From NCBI GenBank assembly GCA_030583865.1, contig CP129479.1, positions 1,946,819 to 2,010,818 of the forward strand: a stretch of DNA of 64,000 nt, read 5' to 3'. Numbering within the stretch: position 1 is the first letter of the stretch; each line of letters starts with the position of its first letter. The translations under genes and the position numbers were made by a program. A model generated the notes under the pieces. It did no database searches. It saw only the letters and a program-made list of their open reading frames with translations, and was not told the origin of the DNA. Positions 1-9,969 of the stretch are shown here, piece by piece. This stretch comes from Thermodesulfobacteriota bacterium (lineage in GTDB: Bacteria; Desulfobacterota; GWC2-55-46).

Positions 1-283
1 AATAAATCTCGTGGACTGGCCTGTTTATGATGACGCTCTCGTCTATCTCTATGGCGCGCCTGGCCGTGCTGACGCCAATTTTCTCGTAAAGGTTGCAGCG
101 GCCCGTCGAGCCCCTGTACATTAGATATCCTCCGGCGAGCGCGGTAGCGAGTCCACCGAGCCTGCCTTTCCTCACGCCCCTGGCCGCCATATAGCCTCCG
201 AGGAGGACAGAAAGAAGCCGCTCCGACGGGCCTACGTTGACGTCTTTCCCGGTCTTCGGGTATCTGGGTTCGTAGCGTGTCAT
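1..283 (-). CDS. DUF2892/SRPBCC family protein, N-terminal part (cut by window edge)
   Basis: The reading frame starts at ATG 281-283 and runs off the window at base 1, giving 94 residues. Two short glycine/alanine-rich hydrophobic stretches (about residues 24-50) resemble the YgaP-like DUF2892 membrane module. They are followed by a segment ending IEIDESVIINRPVHEIY, which looks like the first strand of an SRPBCC (polyketide cyclase/dehydrase-like) ligand-binding domain. The ATG overlaps the stop of the upstream glycosyltransferase (ATGA), so the two genes are translationally coupled and belong to one operon. The ligand is unknown. Confidence 0.75.
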   Translation of the reverse strand, partial: MTRYEPRYPKTGKDVNVGPSERLLSVLLGGYMAARGVRKGRLGGLATALAGGYLMYRGSTGRCNLYEKIGVSTARRAIEIDESVIINRPVHEIY

Positions 284-1371
284 TTCACTACCTCCTGTTT
301 TTTTAGGACGCGGGCCATGAAGCCCTCCAGCTCGTCCACCCTGTGGACGGCCGTGTGGCCCTCAAGCACCCTTTGCCTCCCCCTTTCGCCGATCTTCCGG
401 ACCTCCTCGTCGGGGGTCTCCCTGAGGTGCCTCATGGTGTCTTCCGGAGACCTTGAGACGAGTATCTCGGTCCCGGGTGTGAAGAACCTGTCCAGCCCGA
501 CCCACCAGTCTGAAATGACCGCTGTGCCGCAGGCTGCGGCCTCGAAAAGCCGTACGCTCGGCGAATAGCCTGCCCGCACCATGTCCGCCCTGGTTATGTT
601 CATCGTGAACTTCATCGAGTTGTAGAATGAGCGGTGCCTGCCCGGCGGCAGGTGCTCTATCCTCTCGACGTTCGCGGGCCAGTCGATGCCTTCCGGGTAG
701 AGCGGCCCGGCTACTATGAAGCTCCCCTCGAGCCTTCTTGCAGGCTCGAGGAGAAGCGAGTCGAGCGCTTCCTGCCTGTCCGCGCTGTATGTGCCTATGT
801 AGCCGATATCCCAGGCATTGGGAGCACGCGAAGGCCTGTAAAACTCAGTATCGACCGAACAATAGAGGGGCCTCGCCATGGGCGAGCCGTATTCGCTCTC
901 TATCCTTTCGAGTATCGGCCCGCCCGTGAACGAAAGGTAGATGTCGAACCTGGATATGAGCTCCGGGGTAAGGTACTCGCAATCCCCTCTTCTGAGCCTC
1001 GATAGCGTCACGGGGGTATCTATGTCATAGAACGCCGCCGCGCCCCGGGAGATACCCAGCACCCAGTCCGCCACAATTGCGCCCTCCGGCACATACGAGC
1101 CCACCATCACGAAATCAGCCTCGCTTATTTCCCGGCAGAAGCGATCTTTAAGCTCCTCCATCGACGAATATAGCCCGGTCCTCCCCCACGGCGGCCTTTC
1201 GAGGTCGCGGTTGTCGCGGTACCACGGCACGTCCCGCTCGAGGAAGAGGACGTCGTGCCCCCTGGCGGAGAGCTCCCTTACGAGGCTCCTGTAAGTGGTT
1301 GCGTGCCCGTTCCCCCAGGACGAGGTTATCGAAAGCCCGAGCATCACGATCTTTACAGGCTCTAGCGCCAT
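280..1371 (-). CDS. CgeB-like glycosyltransferase (GT-B, Glyco_trans_1_2)
   Basis: This 363-residue protein is probably a cytoplasmic GT-B glycosyltransferase. The N-terminal half begins with a Rossmann-type strand (KIVMLGLSITSSWGNGHA). The C-terminal half holds the nucleotide-sugar-binding signature of the CgeB/Glyco_trans_1_2 family (YSPSVRLFEAAACGTAVISD, about residues 255-275, then a GTEILV segment). ATG 1371 is chosen because GAGGAG lies five bases upstream. It is the third of three related CgeB-like genes in the operon and overlaps the next gene by ATGA. Donor and acceptor sugars cannot be read from sequence. Confidence 0.85.
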   Translation of the reverse strand: MALEPVKIVMLGLSITSSWGNGHATTYRSLVRELSARGHDVLFLERDVPWYRDNRDLERPPWGRTGLYSSMEELKDRFCREISEADFVMVGSYVPEGAIVADWVLGISRGAAAFYDIDTPVTLSRLRRGDCEYLTPELISRFDIYLSFTGGPILERIESEYGSPMARPLYCSVDTEFYRPSRAPNAWDIGYIGTYSADRQEALDSLLLEPARRLEGSFIVAGPLYPEGIDWPANVERIEHLPPGRHRSFYNSMKFTMNITRADMVRAGYSPSVRLFEAAACGTAVISDWWVGLDRFFTPGTEILVSRSPEDTMRHLRETPDEEVRKIGERGRQRVLEGHTAVHRVDELEGFMARVLKKQEVVK

Positions 1372-1395
1372 TTGCGCTCCTCAAATAAGGCCGGC

Positions 1396-2478
1396 TCAGT
1401 TACGGACAAGCCCGCATAGTATGGAATCCACTTCCCTCGCCCTAGCCTCATAGGTATGCTCGGAGGTCACGCGCCTGAATGCGTTCCTCCCTATCCGGGC
1501 GGCCCTCTCGGGCGTAAGGCCCTTCAGTATTTCAGCCACCTCGCTCCCGTCCGACGCGACCAGCACCTCGCTTCCGGGTTCGAGAAATCGCTCTATGCCC
1601 TCCCACCTGTCCGTTATTATGCACGCGCCGGCGCCCGCGGCCTCGAAGACGCGCGTGGGCGGAGAATACCCGTACCTGGCCATTGATTCCCTGTTTATGT
1701 TGAGGACGGCCAGGCAGGTGGAGTTGAACGCGTTGTGCTCTGCGGTATAGACGTGCCCCAGCCGCCTTACGTTCTTTACCTCGATATCGTCCCAGCCGCT
1801 GCCGCCGAGTATGAACCGTTTCTCCGGGAGATCTGATGCCGCCCTGAAAAAGAACTCCCAGACCCTGGACTCGCGGTCCGGCATGCGGTTCCCCAGGAAC
1901 CCGAGGTCCGCGTTGAACTTCTCGACCGGCTGGACAGGGTAGTGCGTCTCCGGGTCGAGGGCGTTGTAGACCGGCGTGCACTCCTTTGCGCCGAAGGCAA
2001 GGTAGTCCTCGACCACCCGGGGCCCGCCCCCGTATGTAAAGACCATGTCGTACTCTCCGACAAGGGGCCTGAAGTAGTCGGCCTTTCTTTTTTTCATCCT
2101 CTCGAGGGTAGCGGGCGCGTCCACGTCCCAGAAGGCGGCGAGCGCCCCGGGCCTCCTGGCCGCCGGCACCGCCTTTTCGAGGTACTCGTCGAATACGCCC
2201 ACGCCGCTCGCCTTTATTATGAGGTCGGCGCTCCTGCCCTCATCAAGCGCCGCTTCCACCCCCTCCACGGTCGGCTTGTATACGACGACCCTCGCCCACT
2301 CAGGGTCTGGTATGTCCCTGTGCGACTGCCTGTTATACGCGTCCGGCTCATAGAAGGTCACCTCGTACCCGAGCTCATCAAGGCCCCTTATTATCCCCCT
2401 GTAGTACGTCGCGGCCCCGTTCCAGTATGCCGAGACGAGGCTCGACCCGAAAAACGAAATTCTCATGCCCTTTCCCAT
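1396..2478 (-). CDS. CgeB-like glycosyltransferase (GT-B)
   Basis: About 360 residues. The product starts MGKGMRISFFGSS and ends with the family's C-terminal block (YSPPTRVFEAAGAGACIITD, then a GSEVLVAS segment). It is a paralogue of the two neighbouring CgeB-like proteins but clearly diverged, which suggests successive additions of different sugars to one glycan. The frame stays open upstream to 2547, but the extra residues do not look like family sequence and a GAGGGGG Shine-Dalgarno-like run sits just before ATG 2478. Acceptor unknown. Confidence 0.82.
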   Translation of the reverse strand: MGKGMRISFFGSSLVSAYWNGAATYYRGIIRGLDELGYEVTFYEPDAYNRQSHRDIPDPEWARVVVYKPTVEGVEAALDEGRSADLIIKASGVGVFDEYLEKAVPAARRPGALAAFWDVDAPATLERMKKRKADYFRPLVGEYDMVFTYGGGPRVVEDYLAFGAKECTPVYNALDPETHYPVQPVEKFNADLGFLGNRMPDRESRVWEFFFRAASDLPEKRFILGGSGWDDIEVKNVRRLGHVYTAEHNAFNSTCLAVLNINRESMARYGYSPPTRVFEAAGAGACIITDRWEGIERFLEPGSEVLVASDGSEVAEILKGLTPERAARIGRNAFRRVTSEHTYEARAREVDSILCGLVRN

Positions 2479-2566
2479 TCTGAACGCCCCCTCTTTCTGT
2501 CCGCCCGCAAGCCGCGGGGTCATATTCAATCGTTTTAACGCCGGCACTTTAAAAGAAATACGCTTC

Positions 2567-3667
2567 CTACGCGCCTGCCGTCATATTGATCTCCGAGCAA
2601 ATCGTGAAGAGCTCATCGACCCTGTTTCCGCACGTGTGGCGCATCAGGACCGTCTCAATCCCGTTTTTTGCAAGCTCCTCCCTCATCCCGGCGTCGTTCA
2701 GAAGCTCCCTCAGGCGCCTTGCCATCTCATTTCCGTTCCTCGCGACAAGATAGTCTTTTCCGGGCCTGAAGAGCCCCTCGGAATCCTCCCACGGGGCCGA
2801 GACAAGGGGGATTCCGCACGATAAGGCCTCAAAGACCCTTATCGTGGGTATGCCGGGGAGCGTCTCGGCATATGGCCTCCTCGGCACGTGCACCGTGCAC
2901 ATGAATGAAGCGAATACCTTTGGCGCCTCGAAATTCGGCAGCCAGCCGCCGTACTCGATGCCGGCCTCTCCGAGGAGCTTGAGAGCGCACTCCGGGTATC
3001 TCACGCCGTGCGCCCTGGCCTTGAGCCCAAGGGTCTTCACCGGGCCTAAAAGGAACTCCCCGAGCTCGGCCGTCCTCTCGTCGTCCCCCCAGTTCCCAAT
3101 CCAGACGAGGTCGCCTTTTTTTCCGCGAAAGGGCCTGGGCCGGAACACCCGGGTATCGGCGGCCTCGTGCCACGTCCATACCCTCCTGGCCCAGCCGCGC
3201 CGTATATAGACCTCCTTCACCGCCTCGCCGAAGGCGAGCACCCCGTCATAGCCGGAAAGGTCGTATGAGGCCATGTTCCATGGCTCGGTCATGGAGCGGT
3301 GGTGCGTGTCGTGGAAAAAGAGCGTGTACGGGGCGCGACCGGCCCTGTGCCGCCCAATTCTTCTAACAAGCTCATGCTCGTTCCACTCGTGGACTATCAC
3401 CACGTCAGCGCCTTCGAGCGCCTCGTCGAGGTCGAGGTCGTCGATGTCGTAGCGCGTGCTCCCCAGATGGGGATACGCGGAATGGAAGAGCCCTGAAGCT
3501 TCTCCGCACGTCTCGAACAGGTTCCTGACGCACCATGAATCCCTCGGCTCGTATACCGAGACCTCGTGCCCCCTTGAAAGGAGCTCCGTTGCAACGCCCC
3601 GGAGGAAATGCGCGTTCCCGTGGTTCCAGTCGGAGACGAGTGATTGATAGAACATCACAAAGCGCAC
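2567..3667 (-). CDS. CgeB-like glycosyltransferase (GT-B)
   Basis: This 366-residue protein shares the family architecture: an N-terminal MRFVMFYQSLVSDWNHGNAH segment and a C-terminal IPTIRVFEALSCGIPLVSAP block with a GKDYLVARN tail. The start is GTG 3667, preceded by GGAAGG. It overlaps the end of the upstream GT4 gene by 13 bases. ATG 3655, in a TGATG overlap, is an alternative start. It is the first of the three CgeB-like enzymes in transcription order. Confidence 0.83.
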   Translation of the reverse strand: MRFVMFYQSLVSDWNHGNAHFLRGVATELLSRGHEVSVYEPRDSWCVRNLFETCGEASGLFHSAYPHLGSTRYDIDDLDLDEALEGADVVIVHEWNEHELVRRIGRHRAGRAPYTLFFHDTHHRSMTEPWNMASYDLSGYDGVLAFGEAVKEVYIRRGWARRVWTWHEAADTRVFRPRPFRGKKGDLVWIGNWGDDERTAELGEFLLGPVKTLGLKARAHGVRYPECALKLLGEAGIEYGGWLPNFEAPKVFASFMCTVHVPRRPYAETLPGIPTIRVFEALSCGIPLVSAPWEDSEGLFRPGKDYLVARNGNEMARRLRELLNDAGMREELAKNGIETVLMRHTCGNRVDELFTICSEINMTAGA

Positions 3668-4776
3668 GCATCACCTTCCCTTTCCGCGGCGCTCGAAAGC
3701 CGGCCATAGAGCGCATGATACGCCCCGGCCATCCTTTCCGGCGCGTACTCCGCCGCCCTCTCCCTCGCCAGCATGCCGAGCCTTGCCCGGAGCGCCCTGT
3801 CGGAAGCGAGCATCTCGAGCGCTATCGCAAGCCGCCCGGCGTCTCCGGGCTCGACGAAAAGCGCCGCGCCGTCCCAGAGCTCCCTCAGGCTCGGTATATC
3901 GCCTAGGACGAGTGCGCACTCTGAAAGGGCCGCTTCCAGGACCGTAAGGCCGAAGGGCTCGTACCTTGCCGGGAGCGCGAATATGGAGGCCCTGGACATC
4001 CACTCAGCCATCTCCGTCTTCGACAGCCGCCCGAGCATCCTGATGGCTCCATCGGGGATAAAACTCCCTTGGTCGTGCTCATACGCGCCTGCCGCGCATA
4101 CGGGCCAGCTTATGGAACGAGCCGCCCGCTCCAGGGCCCGGATGTTTTTGGCCTCGTCCCAGAGCCTGCCCGCCGTGAGGATGAAGTCCTCCTTTACGCC
4201 GGGCCTGAAGCTCTCATTGCTCCTGCCGTTATATATTACAAACGCCGGGGCGCTGAACGCGTGTGTCCTTTTGAGCGACTCCAGCATCGCATACGACGGC
4301 GCTATAACGGCTTGAGCGCTCCTTAAGCCCTTTTCCACTTCCATACCGTACCTCGTCCATCCGCCCCCTGCGGGCCCCTCCTTCACCGCCTCCCACCAGG
4401 AGAGGACGCACGAGTGCGCGACGATTATAACCGGCGCACTCCAGCGAAGAGCGCCGTGGCAGTAGCCGTTAAGGTGAACGACATCCGGGCTCAAGGATTT
4501 TTCGAGGCCAAGGAGCCATTCCCCGGCTTCCGCGACGCTTTCCCAGGGGTCTTCCATCCACTCGAGCCTGAAGCCGCCCTGAAAGATTTCGAGCCCCTTT
4601 ACCTCACGGGCCTCGTCCATCTGCCCCTTCGTGACCTCCGGGCCCATGGTCGCGAGGAACACCTTTACACCCCGGGCCGAGAGCGCGGAGGCAAGCTCCA
4701 TTGAATAGGCCCATACGCCGCCGACCGTGTCTGCGGTCATAAGGACAGTCAGGGGTCTTTCCCCGCCATTGCTCAT
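3655..4776 (-). CDS. GT4 family glycosyltransferase
   Basis: A 373-residue retaining GT-B glycosyltransferase of the GT4 (Glycos_transf_1) type. The N-terminus MSNGGERPLTVLMTADTVGG carries the glycine-rich acceptor-side loop. The C-terminal donor site shows ALPARYEPFGLTVLEAALSE, the family's E-x7-E motif that binds the nucleotide sugar. The start at 4776 is set by an ATGA overlap with the upstream radical SAM gene; the in-frame upstream extension only reads through that gene. It probably builds the same glycan as the neighbouring CgeB-like enzymes. Confidence 0.88.
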   Translation of the reverse strand: MSNGGERPLTVLMTADTVGGVWAYSMELASALSARGVKVFLATMGPEVTKGQMDEAREVKGLEIFQGGFRLEWMEDPWESVAEAGEWLLGLEKSLSPDVVHLNGYCHGALRWSAPVIIVAHSCVLSWWEAVKEGPAGGGWTRYGMEVEKGLRSAQAVIAPSYAMLESLKRTHAFSAPAFVIYNGRSNESFRPGVKEDFILTAGRLWDEAKNIRALERAARSISWPVCAAGAYEHDQGSFIPDGAIRMLGRLSKTEMAEWMSRASIFALPARYEPFGLTVLEAALSECALVLGDIPSLRELWDGAALFVEPGDAGRLAIALEMLASDRALRARLGMLARERAAEYAPERMAGAYHALYGRLSSAAEREGDACAL

Positions 4777-6050
4777 GCGCCCTCCAGCTCGGCCAGGGGC
4801 AGGGGGGCGCTCTCCTGGATGTCGCTGAAGGACCCGTTCTCGGCGAGGTAGTGCTCGTGCGCGCGCTCCCATGCATTTGAATCCGGCTCGCCCCACCTCC
4901 TCGAGTACTCTTCAGAGCCCGGATACGGGAAGAGCGGCACCGGACTGTTCACCCATATGCCCGCGCTTATGAGAAGCGACCTCCACGCCTCCACGACCTC
5001 GGGGTCGTCCATGCTCGAATCGAGGAGAGTCGCCTGCACGAAATTGACTCCCCTCTTCGCGGTCATCAGGAGGAACGCCAACTCGTCCGTCGTTATCGCG
5101 CACTTCTTCCCGAGGTGCTTTCTTCCGGCCTCCGAAACACTCTCGATGCCCGCTTCTATCGATACGCAGCCCGCCTCGCCAAGAAGCTCGAGCATCTGCG
5201 GCTTCCAGAGGTCTATCCGCGTCTGTATCCCGAACTTGACCCTCCTGGCTGAAAGCGACTCGAGGAGCTTCCTGTCGGGCATGAATATCTCGTCGATGAA
5301 GTATATGTATTCCACGCCCTCCGCGATAAGCCCGTCTATCTCGTCGAGCACGGCCGGGAGCGGCCTTTTCCGGTAATTGTTACGGAACTCCCTCTTGGCG
5401 CAGAAGGTGCACGAATACGGGCACCCCCTCGACGCCTCCACCTCTGCCCCGCAGCCTGAGACATTCGAACAGAACCTGTGGTGGTGATGTGCGCGCCTTC
5501 TGACGTATTCACGGGGCCACCTGAGCGCCGGGAGGGCCGTCAGGTCAGAGGCGCGCGGGCCGCCCTGTGTCCTTATGACAGGGCCCGACCGGTAGCATAT
5601 GGACTTGACCTTGTCGAGGCTACCGCCCGCGAGCTCGGGCAATACCGTCTCGGGCTCGCCCATCACAACGACGTCTGCCCCGAGCTTCGTAAGCGCCGCG
5701 GAAGGGGTTACCGAGGCGTGCGGGCCGACAGCCACCTTGATGGCAGGAATGTCTGCAAGCTCCGCAAAGAGCCGCTTGGGGACCCGCAGCTCCGGCTGCG
5801 GGCATCTCCAGAAAAGGTATCCGGGCGCGGTCGTTACGACGACGAAGTCGGGCCTAAGTTCCCCGACCCTCTTTTTCGTCTCTTCCGGGGAGAGGCCTTC
5901 GAGGTGCGCGTCGATTATGCGGGCGCTGTGCCCGGCCCTTTCGATGAGCGCCTTCGAGTAGCCGAGCTCGAGCGGGAAATGGGGCTCCCTGCACCCGAAA
6001 TATATGCTCCCTGAAAAATCCCAACCAGGGTTGACCAGCGCGAATATCAT
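4773..6050 (-). CDS. B12-binding domain radical SAM protein
   Basis: About 425 residues in three parts. An N-terminal cobalamin-binding domain (1-150) contains a DAHLEG stretch matching the D-x-H-x-x-G signature for the lower-axial histidine. A radical SAM core has the CPYSCTFC cluster motif (CxxxCxxC, about residue 210). A short C-terminal extension follows. Such enzymes methylate or rearrange unactivated carbons. Set between a sugar epimerase and four glycosyltransferases, it most likely modifies a sugar or a lipid-linked glycan. The composition resembles the family I know as TIGR04295, but this name is from memory. The start is ATG 6050. Confidence 0.88.
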   Translation of the reverse strand: MIFALVNPGWDFSGSIYFGCREPHFPLELGYSKALIERAGHSARIIDAHLEGLSPEETKKRVGELRPDFVVVTTAPGYLFWRCPQPELRVPKRLFAELADIPAIKVAVGPHASVTPSAALTKLGADVVVMGEPETVLPELAGGSLDKVKSICYRSGPVIRTQGGPRASDLTALPALRWPREYVRRRAHHHHRFCSNVSGCGAEVEASRGCPYSCTFCAKREFRNNYRKRPLPAVLDEIDGLIAEGVEYIYFIDEIFMPDRKLLESLSARRVKFGIQTRIDLWKPQMLELLGEAGCVSIEAGIESVSEAGRKHLGKKCAITTDELAFLLMTAKRGVNFVQATLLDSSMDDPEVVEAWRSLLISAGIWVNSPVPLFPYPGSEEYSRRWGEPDSNAWERAHEHYLAENGSFSDIQESAPLPLAELEGA

Positions 6051-6081
6051 CGGTCCGATCCTGTTGTTTTTAGGCCGCCTT

Positions 6082-7194
6082 TTATATCGTGAGTCCGCGC
6101 CCCGCCAGTTCCTCGCTCGCTTCCGCCACGCGGTCCGGGGCGTCCTTCCCCTCAAGCCATGACGCAAGCTCGACAAGCCCGTCCTCGAGGGCCACCCTCG
6201 GCTCGTAGCCCAGGACGGCCCTCGCAAGGCCTATGTCCGCAAAGCAGTGCCTTATGTCGCCCATCCTGCACTTGCCCGTTATCTCCGGGCTTATCTCCTT
6301 GCCGAACATGCGCGACATCCTCTCGGCGATCTCGACCACCGCGTGGCTCCTGCCGCTCCCGACGTTGAAGGCCCTGTAGTCCGCCCCTTCCGACTCAAGG
6401 GCGAGCCTGCAGGCGTATGCCACGTCGCGCACGTTCACGAAGTCCCTCTGCTGCAGCCCGTCCTCGTATATGAGGGGCGGCTTCCCGTTGATGAGCCTCG
6501 CCGAGAAAATAGCGAGGACGCCGGTATAGGGATTGGAGAACGCCTGCCTCGGCCCGAATGCGTTGAAGAACCTGAGGGCCACGGTCGGTATGCCGTATGC
6601 GCTCCCGGTTACCAGGCACATCCTCTCCTGGTCGAATTTCGTGAGCGCGTATATCGAGGCTATCGAAGGTGGCTTGGTCTCGGGCGTCGGCACCGGGACG
6701 AGCACACGCCCGGCCTGGTCCACGAGCTCCCATTCGCCTTTCCTCAGGCGCCCTATGGACCTCTCCGCCGTCTCGGCCGCGGCCCCGTCGACCGTACGGT
6801 ACAGGCCCTCGCCGTATATGCTCATGCTGGACGCGACCACGAGCTTTTCGACGGGCCTTTTGATTAAAGCCTCAAGGAGGACCGCCGTGCCCCTGCAGTT
6901 GACGTCCACGTAGTCTTCTATCCGGTACATCGACTGCCCGACTCCCACGGCCGCCGCGAGATGAAAGACCGCGTCGACGCCCTCGAGCGCCTTCCCGACC
7001 GCCTCGGGATCCCTTATGTCGCCGGCAAGGAGCTCCACCTCGTCAGGAAGGTATTCCGGCCTTTTTCCGCCTGGCCCGTGCACCTGCTCGACGAGCGAAT
7101 CAAGGGCCCTTACCTTGTAGCCGCAATTAAGCAGCTCATCCGCGAGGTGCGAGCCTATGAACCCGGCCCCTCCGGTAACCAGTATCTTCTCCAT
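6082..7194 (-). CDS. NAD-dependent epimerase/dehydratase (extended SDR)
   Basis: A 370-residue extended short-chain dehydrogenase acting on nucleotide sugars. The N-terminus MEKILVTGGAGFIGSH is the NAD(P)-binding loop, and the catalytic YxxxK appears as YALTK near residue 170. An inserted 30-residue segment lies around residues 125-160. It is the first gene of the glycan operon, 31 bases upstream of the radical SAM gene. ATG 7194 is chosen because family homology begins there; upstream codons are unrelated. The exact substrate (UDP- or dTDP-sugar) is not determined. Confidence 0.88.
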   Translation of the reverse strand: MEKILVTGGAGFIGSHLADELLNCGYKVRALDSLVEQVHGPGGKRPEYLPDEVELLAGDIRDPEAVGKALEGVDAVFHLAAAVGVGQSMYRIEDYVDVNCRGTAVLLEALIKRPVEKLVVASSMSIYGEGLYRTVDGAAAETAERSIGRLRKGEWELVDQAGRVLVPVPTPETKPPSIASIYALTKFDQERMCLVTGSAYGIPTVALRFFNAFGPRQAFSNPYTGVLAIFSARLINGKPPLIYEDGLQQRDFVNVRDVAYACRLALESEGADYRAFNVGSGRSHAVVEIAERMSRMFGKEISPEITGKCRMGDIRHCFADIGLARAVLGYEPRVALEDGLVELASWLEGKDAPDRVAEASEELAGRGLTI

Positions 7195-7640: not shown

Positions 7641-8390
7641 ATGCCGTATCCGCAAAAGCCGCTCCGGGTAATGACATACAACGTACACAGCTGCGTGGGC
7701 TCGGACGGAAAGCTATCCTCCTACAGGATAGCCGACGTCATCGCCAGGTACGAGCCTGACATCGTGGCCCTGCAGGAGCTGGATGCCGGGCTCGCCAGGA
7801 CGAACCACGCGCACCAGGCGGAGGAGATAGCCGCGCACCTCGACATGGATTTCCATTTCCATCCGTCGCTGGAGATCCAGAACGGCAAGTACGGCAACGC
7901 TGTCCTGAGCAGGTACCCGCTCCGCCTCGTGCAGGCGGGAGCGCTGCCGTCGCCCTGGTGGTTCCGGCCCTTCGAAAGGAGGGGGGCGCTCTGGGCGGCG
8001 GTGAGTTTCAGGGGGAGGGAAGTCCAGATAATAAACACGCATTTCGGGCACAACTGGAGGGAAAGGGTGCTGCAGGCCGAGGCGCTTCTGGGGGCCGAGT
8101 GGGCCGCGCACTCTTCATGCGCGCCGCCGCTACTCCTCTGCGGCGACCTCAACACCCTTCCGGTCTCGTCCGTTTACAAAAGGTTCAGGAGGTCCCTCTC
8201 GGACGCGCAGCTCTCGATTTCGGGCAAGAAGCCCGGGAAGACGTACCCGAGCCGCTATCCGATCGCCCGTATCGACCACATCTTCTCGAGCCGCGAGGTC
8301 ATGGTCCTTAATACCGACGTGCCGAGGACGATCCTTACCCGGGCCGCCTCGGACCACCTCCCCCTCATAGCAGATATTGACATACGCTGA
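7641..8390 (+). CDS. Endonuclease/exonuclease/phosphatase family protein
   Basis: A 249-residue single-domain protein of the EEP (DNase I-like) superfamily. Metal and phosphate ligands are visible in order: MTYNVHS near residue 12, ALQELD near 46, NTHFGHN near 133, CGDLNT near 170 and the terminal SDHLPL near 237. It may cleave a phosphodiester in nucleic acid, phospholipid or phosphoinositide. Pairing with a phospholipase D-like gene 34 bases downstream suggests lipid or membrane work. No signal peptide is visible. Confidence 0.88.
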   Translation: MPYPQKPLRVMTYNVHSCVGSDGKLSSYRIADVIARYEPDIVALQELDAGLARTNHAHQAEEIAAHLDMDFHFHPSLEIQNGKYGNAVLSRYPLRLVQAGALPSPWWFRPFERRGALWAAVSFRGREVQIINTHFGHNWRERVLQAEALLGAEWAAHSSCAPPLLLCGDLNTLPVSSVYKRFRRSLSDAQLSISGKKPGKTYPSRYPIARIDHIFSSREVMVLNTDVPRTILTRAASDHLPLIADIDIR

Positions 8391-8424
8391 CACCGGAAGA
8401 AAGACCCGGAGGTGCGAACACATA

Positions 8425-9969
8425 ATGTGGGACCGGATAATAGAGCCGGGCCGCAACTGCTTCGGGAATTCCGCCGTCGAGGAATCGGGGGTCTACGTCG
8501 ACGGCGCGGAATACTATAGCGCCTTCTACCGCGCGGCCCTCAAAGCGCGGAGATACATAATAATCTCCGGCTGGCAGTTCGACAGCGAGGTGTCCCTCAT
8601 CCGCGGCCCGGAGGCCATGAGGGCAAGGCGGGATGTGACGCTTCTCAAGTTCCTCGATTCGCTCTGCAGGAGGAACCCGGAGCTCCGCGTCTACATACTC
8701 GCCTGGGACTTCAGCCTCATATTCCTGCACGAGCGCGAATGGATGCAGGAGGTGGTCTTCAACTGGTCCACGAGCGAGCGCCTCCTCTTCCGCTTCGACG
8801 GCAAGCACGCCATAGGCGCGAGCCAGCACCAGAAATACACGGTCATAGACGGGGCCATAGCCTTCCTCGGCGGCATGGACTTCGCCGCAGGCAGGTGGGA
8901 CGACAGGCGCCATCTCGCGCGGAACCCCGATAGGACCAACCCTGACGGAAAGTCCTACGCCCCCTACCATGACATGCAGGCCTACTTCACCGGCCCGCTC
9001 GTCTCCGACCTTTCAAGGATGTTCGAGGAGCGCTGGAGGCTTTCGGCGGGAAACGAGATCCGTCTTCCCGGCCCCCTCGAAGGCGACTACCTGCCGACGG
9101 GAATAGGGACACCCATACGGGCCAGGAGCGCTTCGCTCAGCAGGACCCAGGGCAAGACGTTCTTCAGGCCCGACGGGCCCGTGAAGGAGATACGGGCCCT
9201 CTTCCTCGACGCCATAAAGGCCGCCCGGAAGCTCGTCTACATCGAAAGCCAGTACTTCAGCTCGCATGCAATATACAGGGCTTTGACGGAAAGGATGGAG
9301 GACGGGTCGGCCCCCAAGCTCGACATAGTCATCATACTCCCCATGAAGCCCCACGCGCTCGTGGAGGAGCTCTCAGTGGGCCTCCTTCAGACGCGGATAC
9401 TGAGCCTTTTGAGGCAGACGGCCAAACGCCAGGGCCACTCGCTCGGCATCTACTATTCGGCGGCGCCTGGAGAGGGCGGGGAAGAGGTCCCGGTGTACAT
9501 ACATTCCAAGATAATGATAGTGGACGACAGGTTCCTTACCGTGGGCTCGGCTAACGCCACGAACAGGAGCATGGGGCTTGACTCGGAGCTGAATATCTCG
9601 TGGGAGGCCTGTTCTCTCCGGGACTTGAGCCTCATCCGTTCAATAAGGGAGTTCAGGGCGGGTCTCCTCGCCGAATACATCGGGACCGACTCCGGGATAG
9701 ACATGAGGAGGCTTAGGAGGCCGCCGGGACTTGTCGAGTACCTCGACTACCTGGCGGAGACCAGGCTGTACCGGCTCCAGAGGCACAACATAAGCGGCTA
9801 TCTTGCAGGCAATGAGATCCTGAAGGCGCTCGATGAGCTCCTGATGGACCCGGAAAAGGCATTCATAGAAGAGAACGTCTTCGAGATATTCTCTCCGGAC
9901 GTTGCGTCGGCCTTCTCCGAAGGGATGACCTTATTCAAGAAATACCTCTTCAGGAAACGCGCCGGCTGA
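8425..9969 (+). CDS. Phospholipase D-like / cardiolipin synthase-like protein
   Basis: A 514-residue protein with two HKD catalytic motifs, HQKYTVID (about residue 135) and HSKIMIVDD (about 362), the pair that forms one active site in the phospholipase D superfamily. It may transfer phosphatidyl groups or hydrolyse phosphodiesters. Unlike classic cardiolipin synthases, it has no N-terminal membrane helices. ATG 8425 is preferred because GGAGGT precedes it by 11 bases and it clears the upstream gene; the frame remains open to 8377. An intrinsic terminator follows. Confidence 0.87.
   Translation: MWDRIIEPGRNCFGNSAVEESGVYVDGAEYYSAFYRAALKARRYIIISGWQFDSEVSLIRGPEAMRARRDVTLLKFLDSLCRRNPELRVYILAWDFSLIFLHEREWMQEVVFNWSTSERLLFRFDGKHAIGASQHQKYTVIDGAIAFLGGMDFAAGRWDDRRHLARNPDRTNPDGKSYAPYHDMQAYFTGPLVSDLSRMFEERWRLSAGNEIRLPGPLEGDYLPTGIGTPIRARSASLSRTQGKTFFRPDGPVKEIRALFLDAIKAARKLVYIESQYFSSHAIYRALTERMEDGSAPKLDIVIILPMKPHALVEELSVGLLQTRILSLLRQTAKRQGHSLGIYYSAAPGEGGEEVPVYIHSKIMIVDDRFLTVGSANATNRSMGLDSELNISWEACSLRDLSLIRSIREFRAGLLAEYIGTDSGIDMRRLRRPPGLVEYLDYLAETRLYRLQRHNISGYLAGNEILKALDELLMDPEKAFIEENVFEIFSPDVASAFSEGMTLFKKYLFRKRAG

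Follow-up and report, generated by a model that had tools for sequence, protein, structure and literature searches.

What would an operon make in which a B12-binding radical SAM protein stands among sugar transferases? The question is raised by the first 7,194 positions of a 64,000-nucleotide stretch of DNA (the window) from a Thermodesulfobacteriota bacterium, the host, whose genome is a single 2.75 Mb contig and which, among the named genomes of the collection, comes nearest to metagenome-assembled 'Deltaproteobacteria' such as H5_GWC, UBA5799 and GWA2_55_10.

Genes and junctions in the window

Profile matches bear out the genes and functions that an earlier note had read from the letters of this stretch, all of them on the minus strand. 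The operon starts with epim1 (6082..7194), an NAD-dependent NDP-sugar epimerase/dehydratase (PF01370, 2.8e-52) whose nearest solved structures are UDP-glucose 4-epimerase-like SDRs. It is followed by the gene for the B12-binding/radical SAM protein of 425 aa (4773..6050), by GT4a, a GT4-family glycosyltransferase (3655..4776; PF13439/PF13692/PF00534), and by three CgeB-like glycosyltransferases, CgeB1 (2567..3667; PF13524, 1.3e-33), CgeB2 (1396..2478; PF13524, 1.1e-38; an alternative GTG start is possible at 2547) and CgeB3 (280..1371; PF13524, 4e-38), which fall into separate clades with support of 100/100, 100/100 and 100/98, respectively. Positions 1..283 encode the N-terminal part of a YgaP-like transmembrane and SRPBCC protein (PF11127, PF03364) that has 236 aa in full, ends 428 nt left of the window and occurs in the host lineage only (4 of the 58 loci with full flanks).

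The note had taken the genes to be joined by ATGA or other short overlaps. This holds for three junctions, i.e. the ATGA overlaps between the radical SAM and GT4a genes (4776/4773) and between the CgeB3 and SRPBCC genes (283/280) and the 13 nt overlap of GT4a with CgeB1, but the others have gaps, of 31 nt between epim1 and the radical SAM gene, 24 nt between CgeB2 and CgeB3, and 19 or 88 nt between CgeB1 and CgeB2, depending on the uncertain start. Divergent from the operon, on the plus strand, are an endonuclease/exonuclease/phosphatase (EEP)-family gene (7641..8390; PF03372, 6.9e-28) and a PLD/cardiolipin-synthase-like gene (8377..9969; PF13091/PF00614), a pair whose association with the cassette extends from the host lineage to Nitrospirota (6/58 full-flank loci). 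A sigma-70 scan gave two promoter-like sites on the plus strand, for the divergent genes, and none on the minus strand before epim1. In two Nitrospirota loci the EEP/PLD pair is on the same strand as the cassette, not divergent.

The operon left of the window

As had been predicted, the operon extends past the window, for about 11 kb further left, in the same direction and tightly packed, and the whole cassette amounts to about 18 genes. These further genes, given in negative window coordinates taken from loci L009 and L103, are all on the minus strand and encode a Zn-ADH that resembles inosose and threonine dehydrogenases (-1605..-436), a fourth CgeB-like transferase, CgeB4 (-2744..-1653), a nucleotidyltransferase (-3478..-2732), the TIGR04290 methyltransferase (-4202..-3441, L009:5798-6559), a glycoside hydrolase (-5095..-4199) whose gene has a GTGA overlap with that of the methyltransferase, a PIG-L deacetylase (-5924..-5076), a second GT4 transferase, GT4b (-6991..-5867), a GNAT protein (-7967..-6924), a second methyltransferase (-8733..-7960) and, at the operon end, a 578-aa protein (L103:13534-15270) that is without a Pfam or NCBIfam match. 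The four glycosyltransferases counted previously are thus an undercount, since the full operon has six. By eye, the 578-aa protein consists of a phosphoribosyltransferase-like half and a kinase-like C-terminus, and in Alphaproteobacteria and Nitrospirota about 20 loci have a full-length relative (28-42%) close to the cassette. Beyond it lies a gene for a PHP metallohydrolase, in the same direction as the operon. A type II secretion/pilus-type cluster (GspD-, GspE-, GspF- and pseudopilin-like, by eye) is situated left of the operon, at L103:1690-10427, and likely marks its end.

The radical SAM protein scores 671.6 bits against TIGR04295 (cut-off 400), in agreement with the membership named in the earlier note, and the methyltransferase 364.3 bits against TIGR04290 (cut-off 300). 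Both are hypothetical-equivalog families of NCBIfam, here in one operon, and neither has an assigned product, in line with what the note had said of the cassette. Our literature search found no paper on TIGR04295 or TIGR04290, and the searches for CgeB with radical SAM and for inositol synthase with glycosyltransferases returned nothing relevant.

Conservation and gene order of the cassette

The genome scan gave 80 loci (of 135 relatives) in Thermodesulfobacteriota, Alpha- and Gammaproteobacteria, Myxococcota, Acidobacteriota and Nitrospirota. In the comparison of TIGR04295 neighbourhoods that the earlier note had proposed, the radical SAM, GT4a, CgeB1, CgeB2 and CgeB3 genes were contiguous and in the same order in 74/74 loci having all five, counts that, like those below, cover related genomes and are hence not independent. 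This five-gene order is far beyond chance and is kept across at least five phyla, including the plant-associated Mesorhizobium, Bradyrhizobium and Azospirillum, which strengthens the earlier claim of a glycan cassette whose genes were selected together. A tree of 97 CgeB sequences has four clades, one for each position, with 97-100% support, so the four paralogues must predate the spread of the cassette; together with the order in the 74 loci, this argues that the linkage set is ancient and fixed.

Around the core, which together with epim1 is present in 58/58 full-flank loci, the content varies. A second epimerase directly precedes the radical SAM gene in 51 of these loci, UDP-glucuronate decarboxylase is found in 37, TIGR04290 in 35, CgeB4 in 33 and the glycoside hydrolase in 25, and this agrees with the plasmid copies that are annotated in Tistrella, Bradyrhizobium and Azospirillum. 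Most TIGR04295/TIGR04290 cassettes have the second epimerase, an inositol synthase and the decarboxylase, whereas the host operon is without these and has the Zn-ADH, the SRPBCC protein and further genes as extras. Within the host family the cassette is patchy, being present in 14/30 genomes. Bradyrhizobium sp. 195 has two full cassettes (L105 and L117) on the plasmids p195_1 and p195_2, both typed conjugative, which would offer a route for horizontal spread.

The numerous glycosyltransferases and NDP-sugar enzymes would also suit a cassette that makes a surface polysaccharide (EPS or LPS) and has its export genes at other places in the genome, for which the glycolipid/oligosaccharide wording of the earlier note leaves room, and the profile match of the hydrolase to PslG, an exopolysaccharide glycosidase, points the same way. 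Against this, the profile search of the operon gave no match to the families of flippases, polymerases, ABC exporters or initiating phosphoglycosyltransferases, the annotated plasmid cassettes are likewise without Wzx, Wzy, an ABC exporter or an initiating transferase family, and the transferase set is fixed across phyla, unlike fast-changing surface antigens. On balance we consider a surface polysaccharide unlikely. The bradyrhizose O-antigen was also considered as a product and was rejected, the cassette being without linked O-antigen export genes.

The radical SAM protein

The TIGR04295 match spans positions 2-422 of 422, and within the protein PF04055 (46.1 bits) and PF02310 (36.7 bits) are both above cut-off. 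Among 42 homologues across phyla the mean column identity is 66%, and the CxxxCxxC motif (C210/C214/C217) is invariant, as are H188, H190, H191 and R192 of an HHHHR stretch and C20 and C83. The AF2 model (pLDDT 90) has the B12-radical SAM fold; its best structure matches are TsrM, OxsB, AprD4, MgmA, CysS and TokK, at only 14-18% identity, with TM values of 0.6-0.7 to the first four. The two-domain fold and the CxxxCxxC motif are common to TIGR04295 and to AprD4, TsrM, OxsB, MgmA, HpnR/HpnJ and BchE.

The earlier note had named a family with a known non-glycan substrate as the finding that would speak against its reading, and the protein falls into none of the characterised B12-radical SAM families, all of which stay far below their own cut-offs (at most 83 bits vs several hundred): 63.2 vs 650 bits for HpnR (TIGR04367), 43.6 vs 577.6 for HpnJ (TIGR03471), 82.7 vs 481.35 for BchE (TIGR02026) and 29.1 vs 500 for the AprD4 family NF033070. 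We did not pick a reaction by homology, in which the methylases TsrM, MgmA, TokK and CysS, the ring-contracting OxsB and the diol dehydratase AprD4 tie, and the profile search likewise gave near-equal scores for MgmA, AprD4 and TsrM. Judging from alignments and model, C-methylation, dehydration and rearrangement are the candidate reactions. AprD4 keeps a B12-binding-type domain but is not known to use B12, so the fold alone cannot settle cobalamin binding.

The rank of AprD4 among the top profile and fold matches also brings up a secreted secondary metabolite, an aminocyclitol-like pseudo-oligosaccharide for which TIGR04295 would act as an AprD4-like diol dehydratase together with a dehydrogenase. 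The similarity of the Zn-ADH to inosose and threonine dehydrogenases and the PIG-L deacetylase of the operon would agree with it, but the score against NF033070 is far too low, the ADH is found in only 9/58 full-flank loci, and the operon gave no match to an aminotransferase or a resistance gene. We consider such a metabolite improbable.

Hydrolase and second epimerase

The hydrolase matches PslG (1.4e-6) in swapped blocks, residues 2-184 aligning to PslG 131-319 and residues 200-295 to PslG 25-130. It shares with PslG/GH39 glycosidases this profile match and the paired Glu residues, both invariant, of which the acid/base-like one is in a WNEPNN motif and the nucleophile-like one in (S/T)E. 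In the AF2 model, which has eight strands, Glu10 follows strand 1 and Glu112 is at strand 4. The protein has the beta/alpha barrel with catalytic-type Glu three strands apart that defines clan GH-A, but in the free-standing hydrolase these residues depart from the canonical order, in which they follow strands 4 and 7. By alignment and model it is predicted to be a circularly permuted clan GH-A-type barrel, and the cassette would thus also offer a natural example of such a glycosidase. Structural neighbours of the model were generic TIM barrels, from which no substrate was identified; GH39 chains were missing from a second Foldseek list, an absence to which we give no weight.

In some loci epimerase 2 carries a related hydrolase domain as an N-terminal fusion (L074/L104, 13956-16004; L029, ~8050-8870; L095, ~2320), which ties the hydrolase to the supply of NDP-sugars. 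The fused domain has the canonical barrel order in L029 and L074, and it is plausible that a fused canonical copy was the source of the permuted hydrolase. Epimerase 2 of the other lineages matches the CDP-tyvelose 2-epimerase 1orr over its full length (9e-83, 281 bits) and so probably epimerises an NDP-sugar at C2; no clear homologue was found in the host genome (best 34%).

The inositol link

Within 10 kb of the cassette, inositol-3-phosphate synthase is found in 37/58 full-flank loci, a histidine phosphatase in 37/58 and both in 36/58, while 21/58 have no inositol synthase nearby. The two genes are tightly spaced with TIGR04290 and the hydrolase in Bradyrhizobium and Azospirillum, and the Bradyrhizobium runs additionally include CgeB4 and the nucleotidyltransferase. 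In most alphaproteobacteria the synthase is linked to the cassette, but in the host it is a single unlinked copy (G000:C1:646423-646737; L113:6226-7434). The host gene is followed by, and overlaps, one for a PF01261 xylose-isomerase-like TIM barrel, the two together spanning L113:5360-7434 (G000:C1, about 645-647 kb).

Even where unlinked, the synthase is co-inherited with the cassette. Of the host-family genomes, 13/14 with the cassette and 0/16 without it have PF01658 (Fisher 1e-7), and the lone cassette genome that lacks PF01658 is 61% complete. Genomes with and without the cassette occur side by side in each of the genera g6, g10 and g12, and the PF01658 pattern agrees within each of them, which argues that the match does not reflect shared descent alone. 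As controls, NiFe-hydrogenase was present in 30/30 genomes of the family and is uninformative for that reason, and PIG-L was patchy and occurred also in 4/16 genomes without the cassette. Outside the host family, 27/67 genomes without the cassette have the synthase, so the association rests on the host family and on the linkage in other phyla.

Co-inheritance with inositol synthase could also be expected of a membrane-anchored glycan, i.e. a GPI- or PIM-like inositol phospholipid glycan, for which PIG-L would be the deacetylase and the PLD/phosphatase pair would act on lipids. The operon's PIG-L and GT4b, the PLD and EEP genes in the host and Nitrospirota, the TM/SRPBCC protein and the three CDP-alcohol phosphotransferases that the host genome encodes would all fit. 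Yet PIG-L, GT4b and GNAT are within reach of the cassette in only 7, 6 and 3 of the 58 loci and EEP/PLD in 6, and the core is without a lipid enzyme or exporter, and we judge a membrane anchor quite unlikely.

A synthase, a GT4 transferase, a phosphatase and a PIG-L deacetylase are common to the cassette and the mycothiol pathway (Ino1, MshA, a phosphatase, MshB). However, the alphaproteobacterial cassette synthase reaches 531.8 bits against TIGR03450, below the cut-off of 638, the host's own synthase is of a different subtype with no TIGR03450 match, and the cassette shows no cysteine ligase (MshC) and has three further sugar transferases and the radical SAM enzyme. By analogy, the cassette may work partly like the mycothiol pathway without being a member of it.

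Proposed product and pathway

The interpretation that we favor, at a probability of about 0.45, is that the operon serves the biosynthesis of a hetero-oligosaccharide that is linked to inositol, soluble and intracellular. The fixed transferase order, combined with the synthase, the phosphatase, the NDP-sugar enzymes, the methyltransferase and the trimming-type hydrolase and with no genes for export or polymerisation, suggests a soluble oligosaccharide of defined structure with a connection to inositol, which is likely methylated and likely a stress product. In the pathway that we infer, as we do the inositol in the product, its solubility and its stress role, inositol-3-phosphate synthase would form inositol phosphate and the histidine phosphatase would strip the phosphate from it. 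NDP-sugars would come from the SDR epimerases and the nucleotidyltransferase, in other lineages also from UDP-glucuronate decarboxylase, and would be added stepwise by GT4a and CgeB1-3, joined in the host by CgeB4 and GT4b. TIGR04295 would make one radical modification of a sugar or cyclitol, TIGR04290 would methylate, PIG-L would deacetylate, and the permuted glycosidase may serve in trimming or transglycosylation. Since neither the C2-epimerase-like gene nor those for inositol synthase and phosphatase are in the host operon, the host product may differ.

That an inositol-based oligosaccharide undergoes a new reaction catalysed by the radical SAM protein, and that the cassette leads to a new class of stress-protective sugars in several phyla, is possible, though doubtful. 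New relative to the earlier note are the count of six glycosyltransferases, the connection to inositol, the permutation of the glycosidase and the possible role in general stress. With the link to inositol, the homology to C2-epimerases and the fixed transferase set, the 'unknown glycan' becomes a concrete search for a pseudo-oligosaccharide, whose identification would provide an orphan B12-type radical SAM family with a class of substrates.

Regulation and possible stress context

The EcfG consensus GGAAC-N16/17-CGTT was sought within 400 nt upstream of epim1, and such sites were found in 7/54 alphaproteobacterial loci, where the overall rate in these loci would predict 0.4, and in 0/15 non-alphaproteobacterial loci. 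They also precede the inositol synthase gene in L046, L093, L105 and several Mesorhizobium loci that are related to one another. None was found in Azospirillum nor in most other alphaproteobacterial loci, and we saw no sign of stress control in the host lineage. From these motifs, part of the cassette appears to be under general-stress (EcfG) control in alphaproteobacteria, which, because most loci are without a site, is a lead and not a result.

Among the genes next to the cassette on plasmids are Ku, LigD, topoisomerase IB, cold-shock proteins, treZ and Mn-catalase. In Sphingomonas melonis the EcfG-dependent set includes Ku, topoisomerase IB, a trehalohydrolase and catalase, and the EcfG motif is GGAAC-N17-20-GTT (PMC6599016). 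On pTM1 of Tistrella mobilis, topoisomerase IB is encoded inside the cassette (L104:22969-24045), between UDP-glucuronate decarboxylase and TIGR04290, and Ku and LigD are encoded near it.
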